Of a stretch of 64,000 nucleotides of DNA, positions 4,335 to 60,713 are shown piece after piece. The notes beneath the pieces were generated by a model that saw only the letters and a list, made by a program, of their open reading frames with translations, had not been told where the DNA came from and ran no database searches. A program made the translations under genes and the position numbers. The stretch is from Lepus europaeus (taxonomy: Eukaryota; Chordata; Mammalia; Lagomorpha; Leporidae): the NCBI RefSeq assembly GCF_033115175.1, contig NC_084835.1, positions 86,177,948-86,241,947 on the forward strand, in the 5' to 3' direction. How positions within the stretch are numbered: position 1 is the stretch's first letter; each line of letters starts with the position of its first letter.

Positions 4335-4600
4335 TTTAGTTAATTGTAATACTTGCTAATGTTTTTTGGGGGGCTTATCAGGTACCAGACATTGCTCTAA
4401 TGCCTTTATATGGTTCCCTCATCCAAACTTTACAATGGCTCTAAGGGTAAATGTTTCTAATTTTACAAATGAGGAAAAACAATAGGAAAAATTTAGTAAC
4501 TTTCTCAAGGTCACATAGGTGGTAGCAACTGAGCTGGAATCCCAAATCTCTGATTCAGAAAACTTGTCTATGACCACCAAGCTACTTGCTTGTCCAAGCA
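4335..4600 (+). mobile_element. MIR (ancient mammalian SINE)
   Basis: Diverged MIR. It shows the recognisable order ACCAGACATTGCTCTAATGC, ACAAATGAGGAAA, AGGTCACATAGGTGGTAGC and GCTGGAATCCCAAATC, matching the family's '...gatgaggaaactgaggc...aaggtcacacagctagtaagtgg' core. Confidence 0.8.
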
Positions 4601-4702
4601 GACAAAGTGCTTTTTTCCTACCACATCTCTTTAAAAAGAAATCCAGAATATCACCTAACATCCATAAGACTAAGTCCAAAGTCCTCTATATGCTTTTATT
4701 TT

Positions 4703-6362: not shown

Positions 6363-7245
6363 AGCCCTTAAGGCATTCGGAACTGGCTGAAGAGCCCATG
6401 AGAGTATTGTAGGCATGGAAAGCCAAGACACCCCAGAAAAGAAAAAAAAAAAAAAAAGAAGACCTAAATGAAAGATCTCTGCGAGTGAGATCCCAAGGAA
6501 AGAACAGGGCCGTCAAAGATGGAGGTACCTTTCTCTGAATGGAGAAGAGAACTTCCACTTTGACTATGACCCTATCGGAATAAGATCAAAGTTGGCGAAC
6601 CCTAAAGGCTTCCATAGCCTTGGCAACTCATGACTAGAGCCTAGGGAGATTACTGATGCCATAAACAAGAGTGTCAAATTGTTAAGTCAACAACAGGAGT
6701 CACTGTGTACTTACGTCTCATGTGGGATCTGTCCTTAATGTGTTGTCTAATGTGAAGTGATGCTATAACTAGTACTGAAACAGTATTTTTACACTTTGTG
6801 TGTCTGTGTGGGTGCAAACTGATGAAATCTTTACTTAGTATATACAGAATCGATCTTCTGTATATAAAGATAATTGAAAATGAAAAAAAAAACTGATGTT
6901 AAATTGGAAATTGCATAGAAAATTAATTAGTTTTTAAAAAATATCATGTAGGATCTCTGTCTTTAATGTGCTGTACACTGTTATTTAATGCTATAACTAG
7001 TACTCCAACAGTATTTTTTCACTTTGTGTTGCTATGTGGGTGCAAACTGTTGAAATCTTTACTTAATATATACTAAACTGATCTTCTGTATATAAAGAGA
7101 ATTGAAAATGAATCTTGATGTGAATGGAAGGGGAGAGGGTTGTGGGAAAGGGGAGGGTTGTGGATGGGAGGGAAGTTATGGGTGGGGAAGCCATTGTAAT
7201 CCATAAGCTGTACTTTGGAAATTTATATTCATTAAATAAAAGTTT
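6363..7245 (+). mobile_element. 5'-truncated L1 3' end with TSD
   Basis: Rabbit-type L1 3' UTR ending in ATTCATTAAATAAAAGTTTAAAAAA. The flanks AAAAATTGGGTTGATTT (6346-6362) and AAATTAGGTTGATTTT (about 7249-7264) form the target-site duplication with one mismatch. The start AGCCCTTAAGGCATTCGG matches the interior of the longer L1 at 59.6-60.6 kb, so this copy is 5' truncated. The UTR contains two tandem related units of roughly 228 bp, from about 6716 and about 6943. Confidence 0.93.
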
Positions 7246-7264
7246 AAAAAAATTAGGTTGATTT

Positions 7265-22786: not shown

Positions 22787-22800
22787 AAAGCACATATCAC

Positions 22801-23028: not shown

Positions 23029-23249
23029 AAAGCACATATCACATTCCGAAGGTGAGTTTTCAGTGGTCCTGTCACCACTTTATATTGCCCAAGCTCATCT
23101 GGAGGAAAGAATACATGGCATAAAATGAATGAACACCAAGGAACTAGTCTATTGCTGTACTTTCATATTAAAATTAGTTGTTTGATTAGAATCTCTTGAG
23201 TGGTGTTCTGTAATGGTAAAGAAGTCATTTCATTGATCTATGGATGGTG

Positions 23250-56580: not shown

Positions 56581-57084
56581 TCTATCCCCATTGAGATAGA
56601 TTCTTATAACACAAGTCCTAAAATTCTTAAAATATTTGCATCTCTCTGTGAGTTAACCAAACAAAGCCCTTTGATACCTTAATACTTGGAAAATTTTGCT
56701 TTTATCCACATTTAGAATTGATTTTTATTCATGGTTAACATATACTTACGTATTAATTCTATGTTCAATTCTCACTTTTTCAAATTCTTTACCAGTTCAA
56801 CTTATATACTCATTAAATATGTACTATAAAAATTACAACTTTATTTTTTTTCCATTTGAAAATAATTTATTGCTTTTCTTTCCAAAGCGGTATGAATTTA
56901 GTTCAGACTGAGTGGCAGAGGTGAGAAGCGGTGCTCGGCGGCAGGGGCTGGGCACGGACCTTTAGAAACCAGCTCCCGGCACACTGCCTTCTGGGATACT
57001 GTCTCCCGGGACCTGGGACAGAGGATTTTTTGGGGTTGGGGGGCTTTTTTCTTGCCTTCCTCCTATAAAAATTAAGTTTTCAGT

Positions 57085-57480
57085 TCATTTCTGAAAAATA
57101 AATTGGTCAATAAACTCATTTTGCTCAGCTTCTACTTTACACAAAGCTTCGTATTCAACTCGATACCTTGCCAGCTGCATCTTCTCCGCGACGAGCGCCT
57201 GCAGCTGCTGCTGCTGGGCCTCCCGCTGCTTCGCTATGGACTTGAGCAAGTTCCGAGCACCAGTGGCCTTCATCTTCTCGTTTTCTGCTTCCTTTGCAAG
57301 TTGGTCAACGAGTTCAATTAAACCACCAACTATTTTCTGGAACTGGCCAATCTTGTCCACAAAGTCCTTGCACTTTTCCTTGAGCTCTATGATCTGTTGG
57401 GTGACCTCTGGGTCCAACACTCGCAGCTTGTTCAGCTCATCAAAGTGCAGCCCTGCTTCCCCCAGGATGTCCTTGGCCAT
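57085..57480 (-). CDS. IFT20: IFT20 retrocopy, intact 131-codon open frame
   Basis: The translation matches intraflagellar transport protein 20 almost throughout, from [19 protein letters not shown] to [18 protein letters not shown]20 is a small coiled-coil subunit of the IFT-B complex that also sits at the Golgi and helps route membrane proteins to the primary cilium. The parent is a multi-exon gene. Here the whole reading frame is uninterrupted, with 5' UTR (57481-57600), 3' UTR, an AATAAA signal (56866-56871, reverse) and A8 fourteen bases later, so it is a processed copy. The length is 131 against the usual 132 residues: one lysine of the AEKKMQ segment is missing in frame. Other differences from the human protein as I recall it include QIIELKEK for QTIELKEE and MKATGARN for MKAIGARN. 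No promoter is evident and expression is unknown, so it may be a young processed pseudogene whose frame has not yet broken. Confidence 0.9.
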
Positions 57481-57614
57481 AGCTGCCCACCCGTAGCGGT
57501 GGTGCGCTGCGGCCCAGGCTGATGTTGACAGGCAGCTCCTCTCGGCGGTGGGCAGCAGCCGGTGCCTGGCCGGCTGGCCTCTCCTCAGCCGCTGCCACGG
57601 CTACTTACTTACTT

Positions 57615-58197
57615 ACTGTGTACTTACATCTCATGTGGGATCTGTCCTTAATGTGTTGTCTAATGTGCAGTGATGCTATAACTAGTACTGAAACAGTATT
57701 TTTACACTTTGTGTTTCTGCGTGGGTACAAACTGATGAGATCTTTACTAATTATATACTGAATCGATCTTCTGTATATAAAGATAATTGGAAATGAAAAA
57801 AAAAACCTGGTGTTAAGTTGGAAATGGCATAGAAAATTAATTAATTTTTAAAAAAATATTATATAGGATCTCTGTCTTTAATGTGCTGTACACTCTTATT
57901 TAATGCTATAACTAGTACTCCAACAGTATTTTTTTTTCACTTTGTGTTGCTATATGGGGGCAAACTGTTGAAATCTTTACCTAATATATACTAAACTGAT
58001 CTTCTGTATATAAAGAGAATTGAAAATGAATCGTGATGTGATTGGAAGGGGAGAGGGAGTGGGAAAGGGGAGGGTTGTGGGTGGGAGAGAAGTTTTGGGA
58101 GGGGGAAGCCATTGTAACCCATAAGCTGTACTTTGGAAATTTATATTCAATAAATAAAAGTTTAATAAAAAAATTTAAAAAAATAAAAACTAAAAAA
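57615..58197 (+). mobile_element. 5'-truncated L1 3' UTR
   Basis: From ACTGTGTACTTACATCTCATG it follows the L1 copy at 6.69-7.25 kb base for base with minor changes, including the two ~229-bp related units (from about 57629 and about 57857), the G-rich block GGGGAGAGGGAGTGGG and the tail CAATAAATAAAAGTTTAATAAAA. The A-rich tail runs directly into the target-site duplication. Confidence 0.93.
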
Positions 58198-58335
58198 AAA
58201 TTACAACTTTATAAATGGGAAGTTGAGGCTGAGGAGTCAAGATGTTTATAGGTGGTCACACAGCTAGGAAATGGTAGATCTGGGGTCCCATCCTAGGTAC
58301 TTTGGCTCTGAAGTCTGTGTTTTCAACCAGTGAGA

Positions 58336-59566: not shown

Positions 59567-60645
59567 CAGCCCTTGTCCTCACTATTGATGAACAACTTAA
59601 TACTTTATCCCTTTTAGTATTTTTTTTTGTTCTACTTAATACAATTGGTTGAACTCTTTAATTAACACACAATTATTCTTAGGTGTTTAAATTTAACTGA
59701 AAAGTGATCCCTGTTAAATATAAGAGTGGGGATAAGAGAGGGAGGAGATGTACAATACGGAACACGATTGATTGGGCTTGCTCCAATTGGAAATGTGCCA
59801 GGGGATTCCAATTCAATCCCATCAAGGTGGCATGTACCAATGCCATCTCACTAGCCAAAGTGATCTCAGTTCACAATTGATCATAATGATAGGATTAAAA
59901 GTCAAAGGGATCACATAAACAAGACTAGTGTCTGCTAATACTAACTGATATAACTAAAAAGGAGAGACTGATCCAACACGGGAAGCGGGATACACAGCAA
60001 ACTCATAGAATGGGAGATGTCCTAAACAGCACTCTGGCCTCAGAATCAGCCCTTAAGGCATTCGGATCTGGCTGAAGAGCCTAAGAGAGTATTCTATGCA
60101 TGGAAAGCCAAGACACTCTGGCAAAAACAAACAAACAAAAAAACCCTAAATGAAAAATCTCTGCAAGTGAGATCTCAGTTGAAAGAATGGGTCATCAAAG
60201 AAAGAGGTACCTTTCTCTGAAGGGAGGAGAGAACTTCCACTTTGACTATGACCTTGTCTAAATAAGATCAAAGTCAGCGAACTCAAAAGGCTTCCATAGC
60301 CTTGGCACTCATGACAAGAACCTATGGTAATTACTGATGCCATAAAAAAGAGTGTCAATTGTTAAGTCAACAACAGGAGTCACTGTGCACTTACTCCCCA
60401 TGTAGGATCTCTGTCCTTAATGTGTTGTCCAATGTGAATTAATGCTATAACTAGCACTCAAACAGTACTTTACATTTTGTGTTTCTGTGTGGGTGCAAAC
60501 TGTTGAAATCTTTACTTAATATATATTAATCTTGATATGAATGGAATGGGAGAGAGAGCGGGAGATGGGAGGCTTGCAGGTGGGGGAGAAGCCATTGTAA
60601 TCCACAGGCTGTATTTTGGAAATTTATATTTATTAAATAAAAGTT
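59567..60645 (+). mobile_element. L1 3' end with TSD (~1.1 kb)
   Basis: The longest L1 3' end in the window. It starts CAGCCCTTGTCCTCACTATTG, passes through AGCCCTTAAGGCATTCGG and ends TTATTAAATAAAAGTT. The flanks AAAAAATTTGTGTGCT (59551-59566) and AAAAAAATTTGTCTGCT (ending 60662) are the duplication with one mismatch. Unlike the copies at 6.4 and 57.6 kb it has only one of the two ~228-bp 3' UTR units and lacks part of the sequence before the G-rich block. Confidence 0.94.
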
Positions 60646-60681
60646 AAAAAAATTTGTCTGCTTTAGGTTGTATATTTCCTG

Positions 60682-60712
<31 letters not shown>
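60682..60712. repeat. (GAT)n microsatellite
   Basis: About ten GAT units just after an L1 target site. Confidence 0.96.

Positions 60713-60713
<1 letters not shown>

Follow-up and report, generated by a model that had tools for sequence, protein, structure and literature searches.

A spliced IFT20 copy and a truncated L1 placed head-to-head within one target-site duplication: a probable case of dual priming

Inversion of the 5' part of L1 insertions was reportedly explained through twin priming by Ostertag and Kazazian in 2001. In the 2015 study of small nuclear RNA/L1 chimeras by Doucet et al. (PMC4476161), inverted chimeras of U1, U2, U5 and U6 are explained by top-strand priming on another RNA. 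In Meyer et al. 2010 (PMC2837659), the term "dual priming" stands for a process in which two different mRNAs prime both nicks, the second one via its poly(A) tail; 39 loci with a poly(T) stretch beside a truncated L1 are described there, twin and dual priming being indistinguishable in those data, and the authors hoped that later studies would validate dual priming. For human, Law & Burns 2026 (PMC13174262) report that 15 of 17 mRNA or lncRNA chimeras with L1 are in the sense orientation and 2 of 17 in the opposite one, the antisense ones being without the first exon. In the same study, tRNA and 5S chimeras are mostly antisense, with twin priming suggested, and the sense share of the Alu/L1 chimeras is given as both 83.2% and 88.5%. 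Second-strand cleavage and the attachment of the L1 5' end are so far poorly understood. A literature search for "dual priming" in retrotransposition found no paper beyond PMC2837659 in the library searched, and the titles and beginnings of abstracts that were searched did not mention any complete mRNA that had been primed at its poly(A) and faces an L1.

The window analyzed here is a stretch of 64,000 nucleotides on contig C11, and all whole-genome searches were made in its own 2.93-Gb assembly. The 3' UTR sequence of its L1s suggests a lagomorph genome. An earlier note on this DNA had set the layout of the locus apart from that of known chimeras. This claim did not stand, given that opposite-orientation RNA/L1 chimeras appear in two publications (PMC4476161, PMC13174262) and that dual priming was named in 2010 (PMC2837659); the layout is not new in kind and the concept was proposed in that year. 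The block consists of a minus-strand IFT20 cDNA and the plus-strand 3' end of a 5'-truncated L1, placed head-to-head and enclosed by one duplication of 17 bp. Its features and those of the host site are given below.

56737..56844, minus strand: left part of the host MIR, with the left copy of the duplication included (from the MIR alignment of the joined flanks)
56828..56844, plus strand: left target-site duplication AAAAATTACAACTTTAT; TTTTT/ATAG is the bottom-strand nick context at its left end
56845..56851, minus strand: seven T beyond the duplication, forming the untemplated poly(A) tail of IFT20 (from the parent genomic DNA)
56852..57604, minus strand: IFT20 processed retrocopy of 753 bases, five exons joined, from 5' UTR to 3' UTR (from the comparison with the parent exons)
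56866..56871, minus strand: AATAAA polyadenylation signal of IFT20 (read from the sequence; also present in the last exon of the parent)
57085..57480, minus strand: uninterrupted IFT20 reading frame of 131 amino acids, with five replacements and one residue lost relative to the parent
57605..57614, no strand assigned: filler at the junction, TTACTTAC(TT), made up of two TTAC units (57605-57612 with an L1 start at T57613)
57613..58195, plus strand: 5'-truncated L1, 3' UTR and A-rich tail, matching other copies at 95-98%
58196..58212, plus strand: right target-site duplication; CTTTAT/AAAT is the top-strand nick context at its right end
58213..58331, minus strand: right part of the host MIR (from the MIR alignment of the joined flanks)

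The direct repeat AAAAATTACAACTTTAT was identical at 17 of 17 bases between 56828-56844 and 58196-58212, which agrees with the single shared duplication outside both pieces that had been noticed earlier. Its length is typical of L1-mediated target-primed insertion, with an unambiguous minimum of 13 bp (ATTACAACTTTAT) because the leading As merge with the L1 tail. When two 40-bp windows were placed at random 20000 times at the spacing of the duplication, a shared 13-mer was found in 11 placements, all 11 of which fell on the real site and none elsewhere. According to the earlier note, a second duplication around either piece alone would point to two separate insertions; no third copy was seen in the sequence between the IFT20 and L1 pieces. 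The bottom-strand nick, TTTTT/ATAG, is an endonuclease site of the TTTT/A type, as in L1-mediated target-primed insertion. The top-strand nick, CTTTAT/AAAT, lies 17 bases from it, and CTTTAT/A is a weaker endonuclease site than that of the bottom strand.

The flanks were aligned with a presumed MIR consensus. Joined with one copy of the duplication, they gave a continuous alignment with a score of 347 against this consensus, as compared with 124 for the left flank alone, 249 for the right flank alone (from 58196) and 267 for the occupied site, and the earlier statement that the host MIR reads continuously once the block is removed was thereby borne out. None of 300 random pieces of the window attained 347 when joined to the right flank. 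The top random score, 346, came from the piece at 4366-4609, which represents a different MIR and reaches 346 even without the right flank; the second-best piece overlaps it, and the third best scored 317. These alignments support a single insertion site inside a MIR, chiefly through the exact duplication. As a separate observation, the top-scoring random piece revealed a further MIR within the window, at 4366-4609.

The left part of the block had been read as a reverse-strand IFT20 cDNA with an AATAAA signal, and this reading was confirmed by the signal on the minus strand of 56866-56871 and by the match of the encoded protein to the Pfam IFT20 family (E 3.2e-45); a PDB search confirmed the identity of IFT20 and yielded nothing beyond it. 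The parent gene, with five exons, is located at C22:43451798-43460273 of the same genome, and when spliced it encodes a protein of 132 residues that matches the mammalian IFT20 consensus. All four introns are missing from the retrocopy. Two of the four exon junctions are present as exact 20-mers, and the other two differ solely by substitutions beside the joint. The search of the genome with IFT20 gave eight matches, namely the retrocopy, the five parent exons and two older copies (one on C24 at 74% and a fragment on C2 at 90%), and no recent copy other than that of the window was found among these eight.

Since the parent DNA continues with TTTGACC after the last matching base, the A run of the retrocopy is untemplated. 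The run is short (7-8): the T run at the left edge is 8 long, as had been said of an A8 tail, but its first T (56844) doubles as the last base of the duplication, and seven T lie outside. At its other end, the retrocopy starts with GTAGCC of parent exon 1. Immediately upstream of this point the parent DNA carries AAACAGGTTTT and, further up, CCGGAAGTGACG, which we take to be a promoter element. The start of the retrocopy lies downstream of CCGGAAGTGACG, and therefore the copy probably reaches near the cap site.

Retrocopy and parent differ by 18 substitutions in 753 bases and by one 3-base deletion. The seven coding changes, classified by hand, comprise five replacements and two third-position changes; judged by its sequence, the retrocopy is probably young and unconstrained, and its open frame is probably due to youth, with no sign of constraint. 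At about codon 73, the old IFT20 retrocopy on C24 (L010) and that of the window both read ACT and the parent gene reads ATC; a parallel change from ancestral ATT is one explanation.

The right part of the block is the 3' end of a young L1 in the forward orientation, as the earlier note had it, and its A-rich tail directly adjoins the right copy of the duplication. When the whole block was used as the query, 40 of 2883 candidates were scored; one of these is the window, and the 39 others match the L1 part alone, at 95-98%. The comparison set consisted of 27 of these 39 copies (7 and 20 loci), to which 10 of the 39 from the search with the junction were added later. As the L1 sequence continues upstream of 57615 in all 27 fetched copies, the start of the piece, which is A57615 or, if the source was a GTTACTG copy, T57613, marks the place of truncation. 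Set against the majority sequence, the piece shows 7 differences in 534 sites, three of them private among 28 rows; with 37 copies (two aligned in part) there are 8 differing sites, two of them private. These counts are biased low because the compared copies are best hits. A scan of viral contigs with an exact 35-base L1 pattern gave no match.

Several other L1 structures were observed in the window. The 3' UTR of the L1 piece contains a diverged tandem duplication (57641-57797 and 57871-58030, about 230 bases spacing, 79% identical), which is also present in other copies, e.g., at 6702-7252. In the matching L1 copy at 60382-60655 the 3' UTR is shorter, and a short GAT repeat (60680-60713) is located a little beyond the end of this copy near 60655. 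By eye, a truncated L1 having a direct repeat of its own, AAAGCACATATCAC (22787-22800 and 23029-23042), was recognized as an ordinary single-template insertion.

The two 5' ends had been placed near 57600, with a CTTA filler at 57601-57614. The head-to-head junction and a short filler of the TTAC type were found as described, but the boundary on the IFT20 side was off by four bases: IFT20 runs to 57604, because CTAC at 57601-57604 is parent exon 1. The TTAC units occupy 8-10 nt between GGCTAC at the end of IFT20 and TTACTGTG or ACTGTG at the start of the L1. Because TACTTAC recurs within the L1 itself (57621-57627), iterative copying at microhomology during joining is a natural reading, and polymerase theta may have been the joining activity. 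Among 40 scored of 219 candidates, the match spanning the junction was that of the window's own locus alone, the other 39 matching the L1 side; no second IFT20-L1 locus was found in searches of the own assembly.

A search for other divergent retrocopy-L1 pairs, as had been proposed in the earlier note, was made with cyclophilin-family (PF00160) matches of the same assembly, and no such pair was found among the 30 fetched of 69 matches with their 1500-base flanks. The L1 sequences compared with the flanks were restricted to 3' pieces present in the window, so that longer L1s could be missed. As gene exons may account for many of the 30 and the set of L1 pieces is small, the scan sets no useful rate. 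Three loci carry an L1 on the 3' side (L051, L052 and L056). The candidate L064 (C11:111141537-111144800), which has L1 close by on the 5' side, was rejected as a divergent pair; there, a truncated cyclophilin-like copy ending in a 3' A run sits inside an older L1 that extends to either side of it.

Both outer edges of the block are poly(A) edges, the untemplated A run of IFT20 on the left and the tail of the L1 on the right. In its anatomy, the locus presents what dual priming calls for, that is, two different polyadenylated RNAs, each joined by its own poly(A) to one nick. Probably, the block is best explained as a single insertion by the L1 machinery with two templates. The L1 endonuclease would have nicked the bottom strand at TTTTT/ATAG, and the 3' end so formed would have annealed to the poly(A) tail of an L1 RNA and been extended into a short L1 cDNA with a truncated 5' end. 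A nick in the top strand 17 bases off, at CTTTAT/AAAT, would have provided another 3' end, which would have started synthesis at the poly(A) tail of an IFT20 mRNA; this mRNA was presumably copied almost up to its 5' end. Both cDNA ends would then have met and been joined via the short TTAC iteration, and fill-in would have yielded one duplication outside both pieces. Priming of the second strand on the IFT20 poly(A), as suggested in the earlier note, is thus retained as the best reading of the parent gene, the spliced copy, the untemplated tail, the single duplication and the compatible ages; from this anatomy we infer that the two syntheses were simultaneous, as well as the order of the nicks. 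The shortness of the A run, the weaker endonuclease site of the top strand and the lack of another such pair among the 30 fetched cyclophilin-family matches weigh against this reading.

The ages of the two pieces bear on whether they arrived together. Polarization of the 18 IFT20 substitutions by a script, with the two old retrocopies, assigned 6 to the retrocopy, 8 to the parent and left 4 unclear, in a tally that uses L012 beyond 487-686, the stretch of its true alignment; on this evidence some of the 18 differences appear to lie on the parent branch. The range of 9-14 changes on the retrocopy branch is a hand judgement from this tally and from protein conservation, not a computed value. The retrocopy has 53% GC and 58 CpG bases and the L1 piece 34% GC and 6 CpG bases, and the expected ratio of changes per site is 1.78 under human mutation rates, which the composition weighting assumes. 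With this weighting, one age for both pieces gave p values of 0.18-1.0 (9-14 changes in 753 bases of IFT20 vs 3-7 in 536 of the L1). Unweighted, the same ranges gave 0.05 to 1.0; the IFT20 piece appears older when 16 changes are set against 3 (p 0.03, up to 0.033) or the full difference count of 18 against 3 (p 0.013; 0.012 by Fisher). These counts are compatible with one event and do not tightly constrain the ages, with the extreme unweighted ones leaning to an older IFT20.

That lean (18 vs 3, p 0.012-0.013) would suit two successive insertions, in which the antisense IFT20 came first with its 17-bp duplication and the L1 landed later, precisely where the 5' end of IFT20 meets the right duplication, at a TTTTT/G site and without a duplication of its own. 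This boundary offers an A run compatible with the endonuclease, and short duplications are in excess among 5'-truncated L1s (PMC2912911). However, with weighting the two ages show no difference, and the second break would need to lie no more than about 1 base from the boundary, as IFT20 retains the start of exon 1 up to 57604 and no remnant of a third copy of the duplication was seen. With two coincidences needed, the exact landing at the boundary and the lack of a duplication, we consider this course of events unlikely. If the L1 had come first, the sequence indicates that a TTAT/AC or TTAT/TT site would be needed, again without a duplication.

A single L1 tail and a single duplication enclosing the two pieces would likewise result from 5' transduction, i.e., from a single copying of one long RNA out of a source locus that already held the antisense IFT20 beside an L1. 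The start of such an RNA would have to coincide exactly with the T run that represents the IFT20 tail, and in the searches of the assembled sequence neither a source locus nor another recent IFT20 copy was found, the junction occurring once among the 40 scored matches; this explanation is highly improbable. Still less credit can be given to a switch of template from L1 RNA to antisense IFT20 RNA within one cDNA synthesis. Chimeras of one orientation, such as U6/L1, usually arise by template switching (PMC4476161), but the IFT20 template was a sense mRNA, because the piece has AATAAA and an untemplated A run, and a switch to sense mRNA gives pieces of the same orientation; the present layout would need a transcribed antisense copy bearing an A run, and the IFT20 genome search contained none. 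An assembly artefact that joined two unrelated pieces of a sequence known from one assembly can practically be dismissed, given that the duplication and the MIR match across the block are hardly expected from an artificial join and, as a weak point, that an identical protein is found in the protein database on a contig whose length, 125776599 bases, is near to the 125767647 here without matching it.

For dual priming as the preferred reading, it seems to us evenly balanced whether this locus is its first clear germline case, in which opposite nicks served at the same time to copy an L1 RNA and an almost complete cellular mRNA, each from its poly(A), so that the second nick would be able to recruit an unrelated polyadenylated RNA through ordinary priming at the tail as well as through internal annealing. 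If true, a single target can engage two RNA templates, and the second nick is able to act like the first. Two halves that stem from two polyadenylated RNAs reveal the RNA used at each nick, which same-RNA inversions and bare poly(T) loci cannot. The frequency of such events could be sought genome-wide by a searchable signature, namely an antisense spliced cDNA with a terminal T run, a truncated L1 and one outer duplication.

Compared with known systems, the IFT20 copy resembles an ordinary processed pseudogene in being spliced, in its poly(A) and in the L1-type duplication, but the duplication is not directly outside both of its ends, as it would be for a standalone one, since the L1 fragment intervenes on the 5' side. 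Like the twin-primed 5'-inverted L1s (PMC2912911, PMC12016303), the locus has two opposed cDNAs and one duplication; unlike them, with both cDNAs made from the same RNA and the second primed internally, its opposed pieces are IFT20 and L1. A non-L1 RNA lies antisense to L1 within one duplication here, as in the opposite-orientation RNA/L1 chimeras. In the inverted snRNA/L1 chimeras (PMC4476161), the RNAs are 3'-truncated and primed internally, whereas the IFT20 mRNA was primed, in our reading, at its poly(A) tail. The antisense mRNA/L1 chimeras of Law & Burns (PMC13174262) share the opposite orientation and are attributed to twin priming, but the IFT20 copy of the window spans exon 1 through poly(A). 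With the dual priming of Meyer et al. 2010 (PMC2837659), the locus shares opposite orientations inside one duplication; those loci support a proposal only, whereas here the second RNA is identified and was copied almost completely. What is unusual here, and beyond the reach of the 2010 loci, is that both RNAs are identifiable and polyadenylated and that each was primed at its own tail. The locus is real, clean and instructive, and the mechanism is likely, resting on anatomy, and the value of the locus lies in the discriminating structure that it supplies.
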